Source: a virus
IMG/VR virus record: IMGVR_UViG_3300027741_003638
Coordinates: 1 to 45,531 of that record
DNA: 45,531 bases
Strand: one strand, 5' to 3'
Each line of letters begins with the position of its first letter. Position 1 is the first letter of the stretch. The notes beneath the pieces were generated by a model that had not been told where the DNA came from, searched no databases, and worked only from the letters and a program-made list of their open reading frames with translations. Below are positions 6,348-39,632 of this stretch, one piece after another. A program made the position numbers and the translations under genes.

Positions 6348-6683
6348 TCATGCCTTGGCAAGAGCAAAACTAGTACCGCAACCACAGATATCCACTGCCT
6401 GAGGATTTATCCAAACTAGATAACTTTCTATGATTGTGGTCTTGAGATCCAACGTACTGCCAAGAACATGCATTACACTTTCTGCAGCAATGCAGATACC
6501 GCCGCCCGGCCAACGTATTACTTCATCCATTTTTTTCACCTTGTCAGCGGTGATTACTGAATATTCATAACTGTGTCCACTGCAGCCACGATTGTTGACT
6601 TTGATCGAAACCAACTGATCTTCACAACCGCATCTCTGGTTTAGATATTGTCTCGCTGATTCTGTGATAGTTACTACATCCAT
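6348..6683 (-). CDS. A-type Fe-S cluster carrier (IscA/ErpA/HesB-like)
   Basis: The 111-residue protein has the A-type carrier signature of three conserved cysteines: GCSGHSY in the middle and ICGCGTSF at the C-terminus, after the beta-rich core (SVKVNNRGCSG is the family pattern around the first Cys). Such proteins pass Fe-S clusters to apo-enzymes in the cytoplasm. The internal ATG at 6681-6683 was chosen because it begins MDVVTITESA, the usual start of the family, and is preceded by AGGGGA; a longer frame upstream would add a non-homologous hydrophobic stretch and overlap the WGR-like gene. Phage-encoded relatives are known from aquatic myoviruses. Possible clients here are the three radical SAM enzymes of the same genome (inference). 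Confidence 0.85.
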   Translation of the reverse strand: MDVVTITESARQYLNQRCGCEDQLVSIKVNNRGCSGHSYEYSVITADKVKKMDEVIRWPGGGICIAAESVMHVLGSTLDLKTTIIESYLVWINPQAVDICGCGTSFALAKA

Positions 6684-6687
6684 AATG

Positions 6688-7038
6688 TTAATCCCCTGCC
6701 AAATGAAAAAACACAAACTTAGTATCAAGGTCATCATAAAACGATGGCCAAATCGTCTGTAGTGCATGTGGGCTGATTTGATAGTATTTATGGTTTTTCT
6801 TCTCTCTCACCAGTTTTTTCATATGGAAAAAAGAATAGTGGTGGCGTTTGAAATGGCAAGTCTTTCCGGTCCTAGCCCAGAATGTATAAACCCACTTGTT
6901 TTCTTGTTTTTGTCTTATCAGAGCCTTGCGGTCAAGATTTTTTGGTACAGTATTTCCATAGATAAACCATCCCCAGATCTTGTCTGACTCATCAAATTTA
7001 CAGTGACCAACCCATTGAATGTCATAGCGATGGTTCAC
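6688..7038 (-). CDS. WGR-like domain protein (116 aa, GTG start)
   Basis: The sequence fits the WGR-domain pattern: a WxxFIYG strand, then WARTGKT at the place of the family's WGRIG, then a helix KKLVREKKNHKYY matching the KlvreKlkkGY end of the domain. WGR domains bind nucleic acid ends or partner proteins, for example in PARPs, and occur as stand-alone small bacterial proteins. The GTG at 7036-7038 was chosen over an upstream ATG because AGGAGT lies 6 nt before it. The stop is 4 nt upstream of the Fe-S carrier start, so the two are probably co-transcribed. The central Gly is replaced by Ala, so the assignment is probable rather than certain. Confidence 0.65.
   Translation of the reverse strand: MNHRYDIQWVGHCKFDESDKIWGWFIYGNTVPKNLDRKALIRQKQENKWVYTFWARTGKTCHFKRHHYSFFHMKKLVREKKNHKYYQISPHALQTIWPSFYDDLDTKFVFFHLAGD
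6785..6792 (-). promoter_or_regulatory. Possible late promoter core inside the WGR-like gene
   Basis: The minus strand reads CATAAATA, about 100 nt before the Fe-S carrier start. It lies inside coding sequence, so it may be chance. Confidence 0.25.
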
Positions 7039-7143: not shown

Positions 7144-7545
7144 TCAAACAGGCATAATACCGCGCTTCTCAAGAGATATCTTTGTAGAATTTGGTTTGAA
7201 ATGTGCTTCAAACACAGGCACTGCTAGATATGGATCACAGTTACCGCACACAAATATGTCTAGAGAGACAAAGTTCTTTTCTGGCCACGAGTGGATAGAA
7301 CAGTGAGATTCGGCCAATATAAATGCACCACTCACTCCTCCACCGGTAAAAGGATGCAGGTATTGTTGTAGTATAGTAGCCCCAGTTGCCAAACATGCGT
7401 TGGTCATCACACTTTCAATTACATCTATATGGCCGTGTATGGCACAATCATAAAAGTCAATTAATAGGTGTCTACCGGCATAACAAAATTCACCATCCTG
7501 TATGAAAGAGCCAGCATCAGAGTCAACGCAGTAGTTTTGATCCAT
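7144..7545 (-). CDS. speD: S-adenosylmethionine decarboxylase proenzyme
   Basis: A bacterial-type SpeD of 133 residues. It carries GRHLLIDFYDC near the start and the processing motif AESHCSIHSWPE. Self-cleavage between Glu79 and Ser80 would create the pyruvoyl group; His85 and Cys100 (IFVCG) match the conserved processing and proton-donor residues. The enzyme makes decarboxylated SAM for spermidine synthesis. About 20 extra residues precede the usual start of the family. The ATG is preceded by GGAAGG, which is itself paired in a predicted leader structure (7546-7638). No spermidine synthase is seen in the window, so the product must feed host enzymes or a gene elsewhere. Such genes are known in marine phages. 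Confidence 0.93.
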   Translation of the reverse strand: MDQNYCVDSDAGSFIQDGEFCYAGRHLLIDFYDCAIHGHIDVIESVMTNACLATGATILQQYLHPFTGGGVSGAFILAESHCSIHSWPEKNFVSLDIFVCGNCDPYLAVPVFEAHFKPNSTKISLEKRGIMPV

Positions 7546-7638
7546 AATTTAAATCCTTCCAACTTGGAGGTTGTTAACCCACAGCGGGCCTCGCACCCTG
7601 TTGGAAGGCAATTTTTGTCGGGGAAACCTCTTGACCCG
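7546..7638 (-). promoter_or_regulatory. Structured 5' leader of speD, predicted H-type pseudoknot hiding the ribosome site
   Basis: Between a late promoter core and the speD ATG lies about 93 nt of leader. On the transcript, GAGGTT (7630-7625) can pair with AACCTC (7572-7567), and CCTTCCAAC (7608-7600) can pair perfectly with GTTGGAAGG (7563-7555). The order is a-b-a'-b', which is an H-type pseudoknot. The second helix contains the whole Shine-Dalgarno GGAAGG. A small internal hairpin (GGGT/GCCC) lies between, and a local hairpin CCTCCA/TGGAAGG offers an alternative way of masking the same site. Riboswitch function is inference. Confidence 0.55.
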
Positions 7639-7645
7639 TTTGGAC

Positions 7646-7653
7646 TATTTATT
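7646..7653 (-). promoter_or_regulatory. T4-like late promoter core for speD
   Basis: The minus strand reads AATAAATA just after the dps stop codon and 100 nt before the speD start. That is the longest promoter-to-start distance of the late promoters in this window and defines the structured leader. Confidence 0.6.
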
Positions 7654-7660
7654 ATTCTTA

Positions 7661-8101
7661 TCAAGAAACCCTGTCTAAGGTTGCTTTTAAAAACCATCTT
7701 TGCTTCTTGTGATAATCAAGTCGTTCTGCAATGTAATTCATAACTGCTTGGTCGTCAACCGACTCGGCTATATCAAATACACGATTTAACAGTCCTATCA
7801 TTCGATTTTGATCCATGTAGAGGCGATAAACGTAGTCCAACTCTTCCATCATTTCTACATGAGGATCTATTATACTATAGATCTGTTGAGTTTTAGGTGT
7901 AATAGCCACTGGTTCATCCAATTGCCTGATCTTTTCAGCAATGGTATCTACGTTCTCCCAGAGATTATTGTATTGTTGTTCGAACAACGTATGCAGTTCA
8001 AAAAACAATGGACCAGACACATTCCAATGATACGAGTGTGTTTTGGTATACAGCACAAAATTGCTGTTGAGATATACTGTTAAAGCCTGCACAAGATTCA
8101 C
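7661..8101 (-). CDS. Dps/ferritin-like protein (146 aa, GTG start)
   Basis: The protein matches the Dps family: THSYHWNVSGPLFFELH followed by FEQQY and DTIAEKIRQLDE. These contain the ferroxidase His, Asp and Glu residues of the dimer-interface iron site. Dps forms a dodecamer that oxidises and stores iron and can coat DNA. The GTG at 8099-8101 was chosen because GGAG lies 6 nt before it, a spacing that recurs in this genome; the upstream TTG would fall in that spacer. Late promoter core 23 nt upstream. It fits with the SOD, heme oxygenase and Fe-S carrier as an iron/redox set. The N-terminus lacks the basic DNA-binding tail of E. coli Dps. Confidence 0.88.
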   Translation of the reverse strand: MNLVQALTVYLNSNFVLYTKTHSYHWNVSGPLFFELHTLFEQQYNNLWENVDTIAEKIRQLDEPVAITPKTQQIYSIIDPHVEMMEELDYVYRLYMDQNRMIGLLNRVFDIAESVDDQAVMNYIAERLDYHKKQRWFLKATLDRVS

Positions 8102-8110
8102 GATCAACTC

Positions 8111-17928: not shown

Positions 17929-18948
17929 ATGGCAACTTTGATACCTGAAAAAAATAAACCCAATTCATTTATAGATAAAAACCTGTATGATTATGAACGC
18001 CTAGAACATCTAAACCCCAAAAATAAAAACTGGTTTGTTGTCAACTGGTGCCTTGGCAGTATCTGCAATTTTAGTTGCAGTTATTGCCCAACTACCCTGC
18101 ACGACGGTATGCACAAATGGCATAACACCAACAGTGTCAAAAGTTTTGTGCAAAAGATCAAAATGGTGCATCCAGATAAGAACATCTATTTTGAATTTAC
18201 CGGAGGTGAAGTGACCCTCAACAAAGATTTTATCGAAATCTGTCAACACTGCACAGAATCTGATGTCAAAGTTGGATTCATCAGCAATGGCAGCCGAACA
18301 CTGCGTTGGTGGGAAGAAAACAAAGGTTACTTTGACACTGTGTTATTGAGTTATCACAGCGAATTTGCAGATTTTGATCATTTCTCAAAGGTGGTAGAAA
18401 CCCTACATAACGATGTTAGAGTACATGTAAACGTTATGATGAAGGCTGAAAATTGGGATCGATGTATGGATCTAGCACATCGGATAAAAACATTAGGCAA
18501 CTGCAGCATAGCATTACAACCGTTGGCACACGACCTCAATGGCGAATTATATCCTTATTCGGAAGGTCAACTGGCCATATTACACAATCAGCATGCATTG
18601 ATTGGCACACACGTCAAATACACTAAAAGTTTTGAGGTCTACAGGGGAGCAATGAAAACTGTTGATATCAACGGTGTAGAATCTCCTAGAACAGCTCATA
18701 GTTTCATCAGCAAGAATACCAACAACTGGCAAGGTTGGGACTGTTATGCGGGAGTAGAACAACTGATAGTCGACATGGACGGTGGCATCTGGAGAGGTTG
18801 GTGCCGGGCTGGGGGGCGCATAGGCTCAATTGATGATCAGAATCTACAATTACCTATCAATCCAATCACATGTGACAAAAACAGATGCCATTGCAATTAT
18901 GACATAATGAGTACCAAGGTATACAAGAGCGACATTCAACATGGATGA
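17929..18948 (+). CDS. Radical SAM enzyme 1, with C-terminal SPASM-like domain (339 aa)
   Basis: The radical SAM cluster motif CxxxCxxC is at Cys46, Cys50 and Cys53 (CNFSCSYC), with FTGGEVTL as the GGE motif that binds SAM. The last ~100 residues contain a SPASM/twitch-like auxiliary cluster region: NWQGWDCYAGVEQLIVDMDGG, then GWCRAGG, and CDKNRCHCNYD. SPASM enzymes often modify peptides or proteins. The gene opens a three-gene operon and overlaps the next gene by 8 nt. TGGA lies 7 nt before the ATG. No precursor peptide is visible beside it. The substrate is unknown. Confidence 0.9.
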   Translation: MATLIPEKNKPNSFIDKNLYDYERLEHLNPKNKNWFVVNWCLGSICNFSCSYCPTTLHDGMHKWHNTNSVKSFVQKIKMVHPDKNIYFEFTGGEVTLNKDFIEICQHCTESDVKVGFISNGSRTLRWWEENKGYFDTVLLSYHSEFADFDHFSKVVETLHNDVRVHVNVMMKAENWDRCMDLAHRIKTLGNCSIALQPLAHDLNGELYPYSEGQLAILHNQHALIGTHVKYTKSFEVYRGAMKTVDINGVESPRTAHSFISKNTNNWQGWDCYAGVEQLIVDMDGGIWRGWCRAGGRIGSIDDQNLQLPINPITCDKNRCHCNYDIMSTKVYKSDIQHG

Positions 18949-20167
18949 TGTTAATACCAACAAGCAGTTTAGGATTTACGATCATAATGGCAAGTATATG
19001 CGCTTGTCAGTTGATGAAGTAATTGCACGAAATCTAAACAAATGGCAAAACTGGAAATGCTCAGCTGGAGCAAAGGGTCTTTATATCGACTATGACGGTA
19101 ATTTATGGGTATGTAACACAGCAAGTTCTAACTTCGGCAGATTTAACCTAAAAGGTTGGTTGGATCTGCTGCAGAAAGAAGGTAGAGGTGTTGAGGAGTG
19201 GTGGCCGGGACGGCCGTCACTTGTCGAAGAATATAGAAAAGGTCCCGATGCCTATGTTCGTAAATTGCCAATTAGTAGAATAGGTGATCCAGAATTGCAG
19301 GGATTTATTGGTAATATAGACGAAGGATTTCAATTGCCAACCAGTTGGTATGACTGCGCATGGAAGTCCTGTGCCTGTGGGGCTGATGTAATACTGTCAA
19401 AACATCAAAAACCAGAGCATCAACATCTGCTAGCTGTGACAAATCAAGGTTGGCACGGACGTGATTCGACCAAACAGAATCTCCTTGACACTATTGACGA
19501 GCCTGTGGCAGTTGAAATGAATTTTCAAATCCCATATCAAATTCTATGGGATCTAGGAAGAAGATGCAATTACGATTGCTCATATTGCTGGAGTTATGTT
19601 CACAACAGGACTGACCCGCACAAGGACTATCATGTATTGATCCAAACTGTGGACAAAATAATCAATGAATGGTCCAAGGGGGAAACCATAAGATGGAATT
19701 TTGGCGGCGGCGAGCCAACCTTGCATCCACAGTTTTTGGACTTGCTAAAGCATCTCAAAACCAAAAATCAATGGACTATGGTCACCAGCAATGGTACCAG
19801 AGATCATAGATATTGGGCAGAGGCTGTGAAAAACCTCAACAGTATCAATCTCAGTGCGCATTTTGACGGTTTGCGAGATGGAGATGATGAAGATAGGTTT
19901 GTAAAAAATATCAACGTCATATGTCAGCATTTTGACGAACATGATGATGATCATTGGTTAGAAATCAAACTGATGTCACCTCCTCAATACTTTGATAGAG
20001 CACTTGGTCTCAAAAAGAAGATCTTGGATCTTGGTACCATGGATAAATTTGGAGCCAACAACAGAATTAAAGGCGTAGTAAGCATGGTACCTATTCGCAG
20101 TCTCGGTGACAGCGGTCAGTTAGTGGAGTATACCAACAAACAATTGGAAATTTTCAGCAATCAATGA
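18941..20167 (+). CDS. Radical SAM enzyme 2, with N-terminal SPASM-like domain (408 aa)
   Basis: The domain order is unusual. Residues 1-160 resemble the C-terminal auxiliary domain of enzyme 1 (NKWQNWKCSAGAKGLYIDYDG, with Cys40, Cys58, Cys139, Cys144 and Cys146), and the radical SAM core follows, with CNYDCSYC at Cys209, Cys213 and Cys216 and FGGGEPTL. There is little after the core. It looks like a permuted SPASM-radical SAM protein, possibly from a duplication and shift of gene boundaries. It overlaps enzyme 1 by 8 nt and enzyme 3 by 4 nt, so the three are translationally coupled and may form a complex. Confidence 0.9.
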   Translation: MDDVNTNKQFRIYDHNGKYMRLSVDEVIARNLNKWQNWKCSAGAKGLYIDYDGNLWVCNTASSNFGRFNLKGWLDLLQKEGRGVEEWWPGRPSLVEEYRKGPDAYVRKLPISRIGDPELQGFIGNIDEGFQLPTSWYDCAWKSCACGADVILSKHQKPEHQHLLAVTNQGWHGRDSTKQNLLDTIDEPVAVEMNFQIPYQILWDLGRRCNYDCSYCWSYVHNRTDPHKDYHVLIQTVDKIINEWSKGETIRWNFGGGEPTLHPQFLDLLKHLKTKNQWTMVTSNGTRDHRYWAEAVKNLNSINLSAHFDGLRDGDDEDRFVKNINVICQHFDEHDDDHWLEIKLMSPPQYFDRALGLKKKILDLGTMDKFGANNRIKGVVSMVPIRSLGDSGQLVEYTNKQLEIFSNQ

Positions 20168-21471
20168 CAAAAACATTCTGTCCAATACCTTGGAACCATC
20201 TAGCCATACAACAAAATGGCAATCTACGGCAGTGTTGCCAAATGACAAACGCACCGTTTGGCCACTTCATGGATGGCGATCAGGCCATACGATTTGATGC
20301 GGACAACATTGACACCATACGCAACCACCACAGCATTAAAAACATTAGATCGGCCATGCTCAAAGGTCAAAGGCCAACGGCTTGCAATTTGTGTTGGGCC
20401 GAAGAAGATTCGGGTATTGTCAGCAAGCGTATGTCAATGAATGAAATTTATCCTGCCGATCAATATCTTGCAGCAACCAAATCTGACGGCACTATTGATA
20501 TAACAGCGTCCCCATTAGCGTATCTTGATCTAAGACTGGGTAATCTCTGCAATTTGAAATGTCGCAGTTGCGGCCCAACTGACAGTAGTCTCTGGGTGGA
20601 AGATCATGGGAATCTATTAACAGAACAGGACTCACCAACGTTTAACTTCTATGGTGCAAATACCTACAAAATTCAAAAAAATGGTTCATCCTGGAAAATT
20701 GACTCTGATGACTTCAACTGGCATCAAAGTGATGAATTCCATGAATGGTTAAATGGACAGATAGTGAAAAATGTTACGCGCATATATTTTACAGGTGGTG
20801 AACCAACTGTAAACAAATATCATGTACAAATTCTTGAGGAAATAATAGCACTTGGAAAATCTCATTCTATAACACTTGAATACAACAGCAACATGGTAGC
20901 CATCCCCCAGTCTCTGCTGAAACTGTGGAAGAACTTTTACGCTGTCAACATAGGGGCCAGTATTGATGCTATCGGCAGTCTTGCATCATATATACGTCAC
21001 CCAGGAAGGTGGCCAGACGTTGAAAAGAATTGTGATTCTATAGGCTATGGACAGATTCCCCAGATAAGCTGCGGAATAGCCACAACCGTCAGCGTTATGA
21101 ACATACGGCATTTCATAGATTTGACAAAATGGGCTATCTCAAAGCAGTTCACAAGCATACGCAGCATTCCGTCCTGGCATGTCCTGCATGGCCCAAAATA
21201 CTTTTCCATTCAAGTATTACCAAAAGAAATTAAATCTTCTATTGAACAAGAATATCACCAATTCTATAATTGGGTGTCTGAAAATTTTGGAGAAAATGAC
21301 AGAAAAAACATAGAGCAATACTATTCCGGTATAATAAGATTCATGTGGCAGGAGGATCTTACCAAATATCTTCCACAGTTGAAGAAAACTCTACACAAGG
21401 TAGACAAACTAAGAGGCGAAAACTTAGCTGACCAAATACCTTGGCTAGATGAAATACTTAAAAAAGTCTAA
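20164..21471 (+). CDS. Radical SAM enzyme 3, twitch-type (435 aa)
   Basis: The N-terminal ~100 residues hold a twitch/SPASM-like cysteine set (FCPIPWNHLAIQQNG, CC at 24-25, and CNLCWAEE at 74-80). The radical SAM motif is CNLKCRSC at Cys129, Cys133 and Cys136, and FTGGEPTVNK is the GGE motif. It matches the twitch-domain radical SAM group found in uncultured phages and in some peptide-modifying clusters. The start ATGA overlaps the stop of enzyme 2. It ends 10 nt from the convergent holin gene. Substrate unknown. Confidence 0.9.
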   Translation: MTKTFCPIPWNHLAIQQNGNLRQCCQMTNAPFGHFMDGDQAIRFDADNIDTIRNHHSIKNIRSAMLKGQRPTACNLCWAEEDSGIVSKRMSMNEIYPADQYLAATKSDGTIDITASPLAYLDLRLGNLCNLKCRSCGPTDSSLWVEDHGNLLTEQDSPTFNFYGANTYKIQKNGSSWKIDSDDFNWHQSDEFHEWLNGQIVKNVTRIYFTGGEPTVNKYHVQILEEIIALGKSHSITLEYNSNMVAIPQSLLKLWKNFYAVNIGASIDAIGSLASYIRHPGRWPDVEKNCDSIGYGQIPQISCGIATTVSVMNIRHFIDLTKWAISKQFTSIRSIPSWHVLHGPKYFSIQVLPKEIKSSIEQEYHQFYNWVSENFGENDRKNIEQYYSGIIRFMWQEDLTKYLPQLKKTLHKVDKLRGENLADQIPWLDEILKKV

Positions 21472-23933: not shown

Positions 23934-23959
23934 CAAGTGGCCTCAGTCTTTCATTTAAC

Positions 23960-23967
23960 TATTTATC
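23960..23967 (-). promoter_or_regulatory. T4-like late promoter core (divergent pair, minus)
   Basis: The minus strand reads GATAAATA, ending 26 nt before the nuclease ATG. With the plus-strand core at 23994-24001 it forms a divergent pair 26 nt apart. Confidence 0.6.
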
Positions 23968-23993
23968 TTCGAATCATCACTAGATATAGCAGT

Positions 23994-24001
23994 AATAAAT
24001 A
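23994..24001 (+). promoter_or_regulatory. Late promoter core, leaderless class (divergent pair, plus)
   Basis: AATAAATA ends 7 nt before the fibre ATG at 24009; no ribosome site fits in between. Confidence 0.55.
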
Positions 24002-24008
24002 CACTATA

Positions 24009-26834
24009 ATGTCAGCATTTCCCGCAAATCCATTTGATGGCCAAATCTACAGCATAGGCCCAAGATCCTGGACATGGTCGTCAATACAACAGGGTTGGTT
24101 ATTGAACAACAACGCCGCAACAGGCCCAACCGGAGTAACTGGCCCGCAGGGTGTACCAGGTGTGTTGTTGACTACACTGGTCGTTAATAGTTTTATAGGT
24201 GACGGTAATACCGTTGTATACACACTGACAACCCCTCCCCAAAGTGTCTATAACACCATATTGAACGTTGACGGGTTGGTACAGACACCAAATATCAATT
24301 ATACTATTAGTGGCACAACTTTGACATTGGCGGCGCCCCCTGTAACCAATGCCACGATAGATATTACAATATTTCTAACAGGCGCGCCTGTGACAGGACC
24401 AGCGGGCGGAATAGGCCCCACTGGCTACACAGGACCAACAGGCAGTAGAGGACAAGCATCAACTATAACCGGTCCAACTGGTTGGACTGGACCATCTGGT
24501 GGCCCCACAGGCAACACAGGGCCAACTGGTCCTCTGGGCGGACCATCTGGTGCTACCGGCTCAACGGGTGCCACTGGACCATACGGCTGCAGCGGGTACA
24601 GTGGGTTTTCAGGATTCAGTGGCTTAATCGGCTGTTCTGGTTTGAGCGGCTTCAGTGGGTTTTCAGGATTCAGTGGCCTAATCGGCTGTTCTGGTTTGAG
24701 CGGCTTTAGTGGGTTTTCAGGATTCAGTGGCTTTGGTGGGTGTAGTGGTTACAGCGGCTACAGTGGGTGCAGTGGTTACAGTGGTTACAGCGGCTACAGC
24801 GGCTACAGTGGGTGCAGTGGTTACAGCGGCTACAGTGGGTGCAGTGGTTTTAGTGGGCATTCGGGATACAGTGGCTATGGAGCAACTGGTGCCACCGGAG
24901 CAGCCAGTACAGTAACAGGTCCAACAGGCCCTACAGGTCCAAGCGGTACTGCTGGATCAACTGGAGCGACTGGTTCTACAGGTGCAGGTGCCACAGGCCC
25001 TACGGGACCTATACCAAATAGTCCTCCAGTGAGTGGCAGTGCTTATCAAGCAGTCGGTACGATCTCAATACCAGGTAATACACCAGTTATAGTAGTAACG
25101 TTTACATTACCAAGTGCGGGTACCTGGGATGTGAGTTATTGGATGCGTGCACAAAGCACAAACGCTGCATTTGCAGGTGAGTTTGCGCTGTATGATCCAA
25201 CTGGTACACTTGTTCCCAACAGCGCAATACTCAGTTATTATAACACTACTGTGGCTTCGCAAAGCAGTACAGGCACCGGCCGCATAATACTTACTACTAC
25301 CGGTAGCGCAACCTATACCATGCGAGCATTTGCAAGTACAGGCAGTTATAGCAGCTTTATTGACGCCAATGGAACTACCGGTGTCACTTGGGTTCAACTT
25401 ACTGGAGGCTACGTAGGGGCCACCGGACCAACTGGCACAGGCGTTACTGGACCAACAGGGGTAAACGGTTTATCAGGTGCAACAGGATCAACTGGTCCAA
25501 CTGGGCCAGCAGGCGGCGGTGGCACGGGCAACTACAGCAACACCAACGTGGCCAGCTATCTCAGCGGCCCAGTGGTCATAGGCAATCTCAGCATAACCAA
25601 CACAACGCCGGCTACAAGCAGCACAAGCGGTGCGCTCACAGTAGCAGGTGGTGTGGGTATAGTTGGAAACCTCTACGTTGGCAGCAACATAGTTGTATCA
25701 GGCAACATCACAGCTGCAAACATCAACGGCAACATCAACATCACAGGCAATGTTACAGGTACTAGTAATAATGTACAGCTAGTTGCTGGATCATACAGTT
25801 GGACGTTTGACAACACTGGCAACCTAACACTGACCAACACAGGTGTGATCGCCACTACTGGCAACACCAACATCAGTTTGGATCCAGCCGGCAGCGGACA
25901 GGTAAATGTGTTAGGTAATCTGAGTACACTTGGTTATGGACTATTTACTGGAACATTTAATGAAACGGCCAATGTAGCCGGTGTCTACGTTGGTAATACA
26001 GGCACTGGCGGATCTCAAACTCCAAGAGTGTTGTTTGCCAATGGCAATGTCACACAAAACTGGGAAATAGATAATTCAAATGGAGTGTTCCGGTGGTATC
26101 AGCCAGGCGTGACCAAGATGACTCTGGATGGCAATGCTAACCTTGCAGTCACCGGCACTCTAGCAGTAACCGGAGCTATAACCACACCCAGCACTATAAC
26201 CACTCAGAGCACCATAATAGGCAATGCTTCAGTGGCATTCACCGCAGGTTTGGCAGCAGCAGGTAACGTAGCACTGTTGATGAACAGCAACATGGCCGTG
26301 CGCGACAACAGCGTCAACTACACAACCATGTACATGGATCTAGGCACTGGTGGATCAGCAGGAGGTGCATTCCAGTTCAGAGGTACAAGCAGTTATACTC
26401 AATGGGCAGTGATAGGATCTAATGGTATTACGCTGCCAACTCGTCCAGCAGTGAGAATTACCGCCAGCACCAGCAACAATTTTACTGCTACTACAACAAT
26501 AACCAACCAGTTGGTGGACTACAACCAAGGTGGATATTACAACAACAGCACAGGAGTGTTCACTGCCCCCATTGCCGGATTGTATCAGGCGTTTATGAAC
26601 CTGCGCATATCAGGTGGCTCTGGATCTGCTGCTGCTGCTATGAAGAAAAACGGAACTGGCGGCACACAGGTACTGTATTGGGAGACCAGTGCAGGCAATC
26701 TCAGCGGGCCCACGCACTGGGGGGTAAGCGGAATACTCAAACTCAATACTAATGATACCCTGCAGGTAGTTGTTACCAACGGTACTATTACCTTTGACAG
26801 CAACGACAGTTGGGGTGTTGCCTACATAGGATAA
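24009..26834 (+). CDS. Collagen-like fibre with GxS repeats and C1q-like head (941 aa)
   Basis: The N-terminus ([20 protein letters not shown]) is the Trp-rich module shared with the gene at 1-983. Gly-X-Y repeats follow at about 30-45 and 135-345, including a long stretch of SGF/SGY/SGC triplets with many Cys. After the first collagen block there is a beta-rich region; from about 520 come the [20 protein letters not shown]-type (short module) fibre repeats. The last ~130 residues fit a C1q/TNF-like head ([22 protein letters not shown] ... WGVAYIG, motif ends only). The protein should form a trimeric stalk with a globular tip. The upstream in-frame GTG is rejected because the promoter leaves only 7 nt before this ATG. 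Confidence 0.85.
24603..24850 (+). repeat. 54-bp tandem repeat and shorter GxS repeats
   Basis: GGGTTTTCAGGATTCAGTGG starts at 24603, 24657 and 24711, exactly 54 bp apart, with nearly identical sequence in the first two units. Shorter repeats of AGTGGTTACAGCGGCTAC type follow to about 24850. All stay in frame (multiples of 9) and encode SGF/SGY/SGC triplets. Confidence 0.85.
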
Positions 26835-38087: not shown

Positions 38088-39632
38088 ATGATAGACGAAA
38101 GCGGTGTAGCAGGTGCAGATCGCATCAAAAGTCGAGCAGATTTTGCACACTTCATGGAGGATTATCGCAAGCTGATCAGCCAATACCCTGGGTTTGTCAG
38201 CATGCAGCCCAGCGGCAGTTATAACAGCGATCCCAGCAAGCAGGATTTTGGTGACATTGATCTCATTGTGCATATCGAATCATCCAAAACTAAACCTGAA
38301 CTCAAAAAAGATCTAGTGAATTGGTTTACAAAACAGCCTGACACAGTTATAGTACCGTTTTCAAATCCCAAATATGTTGGCAAGCGCACCTACAACAGCG
38401 GTGAGATTGTGTCTGTGCGTTATCACGATGCAGATCTCGGCTATTCTGCACAGATCGACAACATTATAGCACTGGATTCAACTGAAGCAGAGTTCAAACA
38501 GGGCTTTCTAGATTATCCGGCAGCCACTCAAGGATTGATACTGGGTTTGGTCAAGATTGCTGCCATAGAAACTGAACCTGCAGACTTGTTTAAATCTCTA
38601 GGAATTGACATCAAACGACTTGATCCCCAAGGTCTTGGTCCAGATCAAGAGTATGAATTCAATCTCAGCAGTAATGAATTGCAACTACGCAAGGTCACTT
38701 ATCAGCCGGGTACATTTACCACTGCTGATAAGATAGTTTTGTGGAGTTCTCGCAATATAAAAGATCTCCAGACCCTGTTGTGGCAGTATGATCTTAAAGA
38801 CAATTTTCCTGGACTTTTGAAACAGGCCAAAAGCAAGATACGTAATCCTCGCAGTAATCGCAGGATGGAAGGTGTATTTTCCAGCATGGTCAGTGTGAAA
38901 TCTGGTGAAGTTGGCACTGCAAAAGGTCAGCAAAAGACCTCCGCACTTGATGCGGTAAAGTCAGCATTTGCCGAACACAAGATACCTACCCTCAAAGAAT
39001 ACTTTGATTTTATTACTGCGGGACAAAAACTTCTAATAGAAGCAGAACAGGGCAAGACTATAGTTATCTTTTCTGGCAGATTCCAACCTTTTCATCAGGG
39101 ACATGCAGAAACCTACAGGGAACTACAGCAGAAATGGCCAGATGCCGACGTTTGGATCGCTACCACTGGCAAGACAGGTCCTGACAGCCCGTTCAATTTT
39201 GCTGAACGCAAAAGTCTTGCTGAACTGCAGGGGATTCCTGCCAACAGAATTGCCGAAGTAAAAAGCCCATATCAGGCCACAGAAATACTAGCCCATTACG
39301 ATCCCACAGTTGATCATGTGATTTATGCTGTAAGTGCCAAAGATGCAGATAGATTAAAAGGTGGGTTGAAGAAGGACGGCACTCCTGCTTATCTACAGCC
39401 CTATCATCCGGGCGAACCAATGGCACCATTTGACTTAAAATCTGGACATGCATATGTTACCATAACACCTGTGGTGCAGTTCACTGTTGCTGGACAAGAC
39501 ATCATCAGTGCTACCGACATACGCAACATGCTGTCGCATAATGACGCACAATTGCAACGTCAAGTTCTGCAGGATCTCTATGGAAAAAATGCCGCTGCTG
39601 CGGCAAAGATAGTTTTGCCACACTTCAAGTGA
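38088..39632 (+). CDS. Fusion: pol-beta nucleotidyltransferase and HxGH adenylyltransferase-like (514 aa)
   Basis: The N-terminal domain (1-200) carries SGSYNSDPSKQDFGDIDLI (motif GSYN ... GDIDLI, Gly43-Ser44, Asp56, Asp58) and a third acidic residue in AQIDNIIA, a pol-beta nucleotidyltransferase. The C-terminal domain (about 325-514) starts FSGRFQPFHQGH, the HxGH signature, and has ISATDIRNM, matching ISxTxIR of nucleotidylyltransferases such as NMN adenylyltransferase or phosphopantetheine adenylyltransferase. A linker with RSNRRMEGVFSS lies between. Two different nucleotidyl-transfer folds in one chain is unusual. NAD metabolism is possible for the second domain. Confidence 0.82.
   Translation: MIDESGVAGADRIKSRADFAHFMEDYRKLISQYPGFVSMQPSGSYNSDPSKQDFGDIDLIVHIESSKTKPELKKDLVNWFTKQPDTVIVPFSNPKYVGKRTYNSGEIVSVRYHDADLGYSAQIDNIIALDSTEAEFKQGFLDYPAATQGLILGLVKIAAIETEPADLFKSLGIDIKRLDPQGLGPDQEYEFNLSSNELQLRKVTYQPGTFTTADKIVLWSSRNIKDLQTLLWQYDLKDNFPGLLKQAKSKIRNPRSNRRMEGVFSSMVSVKSGEVGTAKGQQKTSALDAVKSAFAEHKIPTLKEYFDFITAGQKLLIEAEQGKTIVIFSGRFQPFHQGHAETYRELQQKWPDADVWIATTGKTGPDSPFNFAERKSLAELQGIPANRIAEVKSPYQATEILAHYDPTVDHVIYAVSAKDADRLKGGLKKDGTPAYLQPYHPGEPMAPFDLKSGHAYVTITPVVQFTVAGQDIISATDIRNMLSHNDAQLQRQVLQDLYGKNAAAAAKIVLPHFK

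Follow-up and report, generated by a model that had tools for sequence, protein, structure and literature searches.

Four kinds of described system come closest to the leader analyzed here, which precedes a phage polyamine gene. The spermidine riboswitches, which are rare SAM-I variants, occupy the leaders of polyamine genes, speD among them, in Gram-positive bacteria; in them a conserved RNA is coupled to an expression platform, the architecture is the four-stem one of SAM-I, and regulation is through transcription termination (Salvail et al. 2023, PMC10853860). SAM-II and SAM-V are small riboswitches of aquatic bacteria, built as H-type pseudoknots that can involve the Shine–Dalgarno (SD) sequence. 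The operators of T4 genes 32 and 43 are structured leaders near the ribosome site that control translation in cis by binding the product of their own gene (PMC3014915). The mobE gene of phage Aeh1 has its ribosome binding site sequestered in an RNA hairpin. To our knowledge, no conserved sensor-like domain has been described for that hairpin. S-adenosylmethionine decarboxylase (AdoMetDC, encoded by speD) is the commonest polyamine gene in phages (PMC9992855), and the literature cited here contains no description of the control of speD by phages.

We analyzed a 45,531-nt stretch of viral DNA, referred to below as the window (IMG/VR record IMGVR_UViG_3300027741_003638), from a tailed phage with a match to T4-type DNA polymerase. 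Its speD leader resembles the spermidine riboswitch in its place before a polyamine gene and in pairing a conserved RNA with an apparent expression platform, but differs from it in having no SAM-I match and no terminator, a core of only 55 nt and an SD that is masked directly. The likeness to SAM-II and SAM-V is limited by the lack of an Rfam match and by the position of the SD strand outside the conserved sequence. With the T4 operators the leader shares its structure near the ribosome site and, as we propose, translational control in cis; whereas those leaders bind their own gene product, the core in the window is far more conserved than SpeD itself. As in mobE, a hairpin can cover the ribosome site of the gene that follows, but the late promoter of the window precedes the entire hairpin. 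A first-pass annotation had read this leader as a pseudoknot that buries the ribosome site and may sense SAM or a polyamine. That observation is right as regards the long leader behind a late promoter and the helix that buries the SD, and a core of the leader is conserved in a relative; it is wrong about the 6-bp helix, and the ligand that it suggests is conjectural. If the leader does gate translation, it would be a concrete and cheap test case for RNA sensing of host metabolites by lytic phages, and it would add a leader RNA that matches nothing in Rfam.

The speD locus and the interleaved helices

The speD gene (7144–7545, minus strand, as are the other elements of the locus described here) encodes a class 1b S-adenosylmethionine decarboxylase homologue of 133 aa, identified by Pfam PF02675 (E = 3e-28) and by alignment to PDB 1tlu. 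Upstream lies a ferritin/Dps-like gene (7661–8107; PF00210, E = 1e-20). Within 8099–8107, the TTG at 8107 is probably not its start; a GTG just downstream, preceded by AGGAG, is likelier, and the Dps of the relatives described below begins with ATG at a nearly matching place. The 115-nt gap between the two genes contains a T4-type late promoter core, AATAAATA (7653–7646), and a 100-nt leader. Counterparts of this promoter, GATAAATA or AATAAATA, occur at a similar place in the relatives. Its 3′ end is 100 nt from the speD ATG (7545), compared with 2–34 nt for most other TATAAATA-like sites 5′ of genes, so the promoter is indeed unusually far from its gene, as had been noted. From T4 late-promoter geometry we place the start of the speD transcript at about the 5′-most nucleotide of the conserved core described below; this core lies 20 nt beyond the Dps-like stop codon.

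The first-pass annotation described two interleaved perfect helices of 6 and 9 bp, the longer of which holds the complete SD, and every named element can be located on the minus strand. Helix a–a′ joins GAGGTT (7630–7625) to AACCTC (7572–7567) over 6 bp, and helix b–b′ joins CCTTCCAAC (7608–7600) to GTTGGAAGG (7563–7555) over 9 bp, with the whole SD inside b′. All four strands are perfect and follow the order a-b-a′-b′. Mononucleotide shuffling of the 108-nt leader yields a helix of 6 bp or more in 57% of cases, one of 9 bp or more in 1.1%, and an interleaved 6 + 9 arrangement in 0.2%; by these frequencies the 9-bp helix stands out, whereas the 6-bp helix alone does not. The stability of the whole leader is not exceptional (z = –1.4). 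Its predicted minimum-energy fold is a nested hairpin that includes the same 9-bp helix, so the SD would be masked with or without the pseudoknot.

A 55-nt core conserved in two related phages

A scan with the Dps protein of the window retrieved two IMG/VR phages that are nearly identical to each other (loci L020 and L022, records G001 and G002) and have the same dps–leader–speD order. Between these phages and the window, identity is 78% for Dps and only 52% for SpeD; the SpeD of the window is 62% identical to that of a further locus, L008. Within the leader, a 55-nt segment (AACGGGTCAAGAGG...GGTGCGAGGCCC; 7586–7640), which we propose as the binding or sensor domain, is identical at 53 of 55 positions in both relatives. 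Between the window and G002, where 12.4 kb can be aligned at a mean identity of 70%, it is the best conserved of all 11,444 alignable 55-nt windows; against G001 it ties for the top score. The core is nevertheless a non-coding segment; none of the reading frames that cross it has a conserved start. A conserved small peptide or upstream ORF was considered and rejected: the start is not conserved, and a 12-codon ORF of the relatives is absent in the window. This conservation, seen in the aligned sequences, is strong evidence that the segment matters. Compared with the claims made at first pass, this core, which hardly varies between two phage lineages and matches no known family, is the new and firmer fact. 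It is also a conserved leader domain 5′ of a metabolic gene, one of the marks of a riboswitch.

Comparison with the relatives separates the two helices. The a′ strand AACCTC (7567–7572) is missing in both relatives, and a–a′ was therefore rejected as a conserved structure; the pseudoknot first proposed is thus not the conserved one. Helix b–b′ is retained, with 9 bp in the window and 7 bp in the relatives. RNAfold of the core predicts two possible hairpins, H1 (7619–7638), in which CGGG (7638–7635) pairs with CCCG (7622–7619), and H2 (7588–7609), in which GCCUU (7609–7605) pairs with GAGGC (7592–7588). H2 also appears when the leader of the window is folded with the SD held open. Both substitutions in the core (7617 and 7614) fall in the predicted linker between H1 and H2 (7610–7618), a placement with a chance of 0.024, and the helices of the core are invariant across the two independent lineages compared. 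By itself, the core folds no more stably than its shuffles (P = 0.86), so its folds are hypotheses, and protein binding is as possible as metabolite binding. A suboptimal fold of the core (–10.7 vs –11.3 kcal/mol) pairs GGGUC with GGCCC.

Predicted Shine–Dalgarno masking and a possible switch

The anti-SD strand b, CCUUCCAAC (7600–7608), is an invariant part of the core. Its partner b′, GUUGGAAGG (7555–7563), which carries the SD, becomes GUUGGAGAA in the relatives, where 7 bp with b are kept as GUUGGAG and the SD is still inside. The whole strand between the core and the start codon (7546–7585, including GGGUU at 7580–7576 and ACCU at 7571–7568) has diverged almost beyond alignment, yet it remains complementary to the core. 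In the window, this putative expression platform can form GGCCC:GGGUU, GGGU:ACCU and CCUUCCAAC:GUUGGAAGG; on the same core segments, L022 can form GAG(g)CC:GGCUC, AGGGU:ACCCU and the SD helix. The changes in the SD strand between window and relatives comprise three one-sided compatible ones and no compensatory double change in these two lineages; of the 18 consensus pairs, 5 are disrupted in the window. When the pairing of the real strand with the core was compared with that of di- and mononucleotide shuffles of the strand, it was better than chance in the window (P = 0.047 and 0.011, respectively), in L020 (P = 0.012 and 0.004) and in L022 (P = 0.003 and 0.001). With the SD held fixed, the signal in the window is weak (P = 0.065). 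Platform pairing is thus clearly above chance in the relatives and marginally so in the window.

The speD SD is one of the two most buried among 37 genes of the window that were tested. Keeping it open at 37 °C costs a predicted 8.3 kcal/mol in the window and 3.5–6.0 kcal/mol in the relatives. As in SD-sequestering phage leaders, the SD is paired in the predicted default fold and this pairing is kept in the relatives. The claim that a leader helix buries the ribosome site is therefore supported at the level of predicted folds. Because its 55-nt core is nearly identical in a distant relative and is able to hide the SD, the leader is probably a genuine RNA regulatory element.

Based on these predicted folds, we propose that the leader of the late speD mRNA acts in cis, is OFF by default and is opened by a binder at the core, a reading to which we give an even chance. 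By default, CCUUCCAAC of the core would pair with GUUGGAAGG, leaving speD poorly translated. A candidate binder, metabolite or protein, would occupy the core, which would then retain CCUUCCAAC through H2 or another core fold; H2 and the SD-masking helix are mutually exclusive. The SD would be released and SpeD made. The assignment of the bound state to ON follows from the direct competition of the conserved domain with the variable SD strand, with no intermediate strand between them. The invariance of b suggests that it has a second role within the core, since masking a varying SD strand does not need an invariant b. An OFF switch is also possible in these models: GGGUC (7637–7633) and GGCCC (7590–7586) may enclose b at the same time as b is paired to the SD. 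Such an arrangement would be an H-type pseudoknot made of invariant strands, different from the one in the first-pass annotation.

Homology searches, the SpeD enzyme and rival explanations

Rfam cmscan of the window against all families at gathering scores gave no match. A permissive search of the leader against 4227 Rfam families, with E up to 10, returned chance-level non-riboswitch matches or none; SAM-II and SAM-V were not matched, and no riboswitch family appeared, in agreement with the initial impression that the leader follows no known consensus. The SAM-I, SAM-IV and SAM-I/IV models (RF00162, RF00634 and RF01725) likewise had no match with E up to 10 in the window, G001 or G002. A SAM-I-like three-way junction, suggested by eye from the strings UCAAGAG, CCCGAYAA and GGGUGC, was rejected: there is no P4, and we do not claim such a junction because no covariance model of the SAM-I clan matches. 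The leader has no P2 kink-turn with P2 pseudoknot and multi-stem junction of the kind that marks this clan, and no intrinsic terminator was found in it. A strict pattern of the core had no match in one genome each from 84,980 bacterial and archaeal species; a looser pattern had six in the same set, none extending into the rest of the core. In IMG/VR, the core patterns recovered the two known relatives only, plus matches amid unrelated sequence. The two loose matches that were examined, one in a genome (L055) and one viral (L054), both lie inside reading frames. The 9-bp helix pattern alone occurs in 13 IMG/VR stretches, none of which is a listed speD locus. Searches with blastn of INPHARED, PLSDB and E. 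coli gave chance-level matches or none. We also retrieved 46 IMG/VR speD loci and read their upstream sequences. A sequence model of the core, run on 33 sources that included 26 other speD-bearing loci and three phages, found the three known copies only. Most phage speD genes therefore lack the core, and among the loci examined only L020 and L022 share it with the window. Two other loci have different leaders at the same place before speD: in L015 (1400–1492) and L016 (1410–1489), an TATATAAATA late promoter is followed by a strong, unrelated hairpin ahead of the start codon.

Among the SpeD homologues of phages, some can decarboxylate ornithine or arginine rather than SAM, in freshwater myophages as well (PMC9992855, PMC10407285), and a conserved proline marks true SAM decarboxylases (PMC10407285). 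Aligned to 1tlu, the SpeD of the window retains the ESH...H.WPE...C pattern as ESHCSIHSWPE...C; its catalytic Ser, His and Cys are all kept, as is the Pro. We read the proline of WPE as that marker residue. All four residues expected of a bona fide AdoMetDC are present; the four ODC-diagnostic residues lie outside this comparison. Because the catalytic residues and the proline are kept, SAM is a plausible substrate of this SpeD. The SpeD homologues of L016 (1501–1854, WVEEGF) and L018 (1501–1827, WIDEGF) do not have this proline and are candidates, by sequence, for the ornithine or arginine decarboxylases described in PMC9992855. The ligand suggested at first pass has a precedent, since a spermidine riboswitch precedes speD in Gram-positive bacteria (PMC10853860); SAM or a polyamine as ligand of the present leader would be purely conjectural, by that analogy.

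The binder-opened leader proposed above has two special cases. The first is a metabolite riboswitch proper: the core may be an aptamer, of a class not yet described, that recognizes SAM, decarboxylated SAM, a polyamine or a related compound. Its position before speD speaks for this reading, as do the rare SAM-I variants in front of polyamine genes (PMC10853860), the riboswitches carried by some phages (PMC9004378), the SAM-decarboxylase proline in SpeD (PMC10407285) and the usual riboswitch layout of a conserved core with a variable SD strand. The intrinsic fold is weak, however, neither Rfam as a whole nor the SAM-I, SAM-IV and SAM-I/IV models detect a riboswitch, and absence by two patterns from the genomes of 84,980 species would be unusual for a metabolite class, and we regard the reading as somewhat unlikely. 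Its most specific form, a phage riboswitch of an undescribed class with a 55-nt aptamer that binds a metabolite of the SAM/polyamine pathway, releases the SD and turns on a late SAM decarboxylase, is unlikely. We consider equally improbable a translational operator, in which a protein of phage or host origin would bind the core and control speD translation as for T4 genes 32 and 43. Operators of this kind are known from T4-type phages (PMC3014915), a nearly invariant sequence that folds weakly on its own suits a protein target, and the core was found in phages of one group only. No candidate protein stands out, though, and autoregulation by SpeD is disfavored because SpeD is only 52% identical between window and L020 while the site is nearly invariant.

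Two further explanations dispense with a binder. A simple SD-masking hairpin could time expression without any sensor, as in late T4 genes or Aeh1 mobE. The T4 timing scheme places the late promoter within the hairpin, and late mRNA thereby avoids being masked. Here, the promoter at 7653–7646 is upstream of both arms and the late transcript keeps the 5′ arm; moreover, a hairpin alone would not explain why the first 31 nt on the 5′ side of the core, which are not part of it, are conserved. This makes a pure timing device quite unlikely, even though SD-sequestering hairpins are known from T4-type phages, such as that of mobE (Gibb and Edgell 2009, cited in PMC3014915). The identity of the core could also be due to a tract of recent recombination, or to a site that acts at the DNA level, such as a promoter-linked module boundary, rather than to RNA function. 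T4-type phages reportedly shuffle modules at promoter-stem-loop elements (PeSLs), and the SpeD of the window is nearer to L008 (62%) than to L020, which suggests that speD may have been exchanged here. The conserved tract, however, begins at the presumed transcript start and stops just short of the SD strand, the sequence past its end has diverged with complementarity kept, and an intrinsic terminator is lacking, all of which leaves this origin very unlikely.

Several other features of the phage were noted. A gene for Fe–S cluster biosynthesis (6348–6767; PF01521) is the second gene 3′ of speD, an order also kept in L020 and L022. Three consecutive genes at 17929–21471 have radical-SAM-like PHROGs matches and are presumably SAM users in the phage that carries speD. 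A tandem repeat array of 9/27/54 bp (24591–24849) lies within a 965-aa gene (23937–26834). A 514-aa protein (38088–39632) has a cytidyltransferase-like domain and is 35% identical to Flavobacterium phage proteins annotated as NMN adenylyltransferase.
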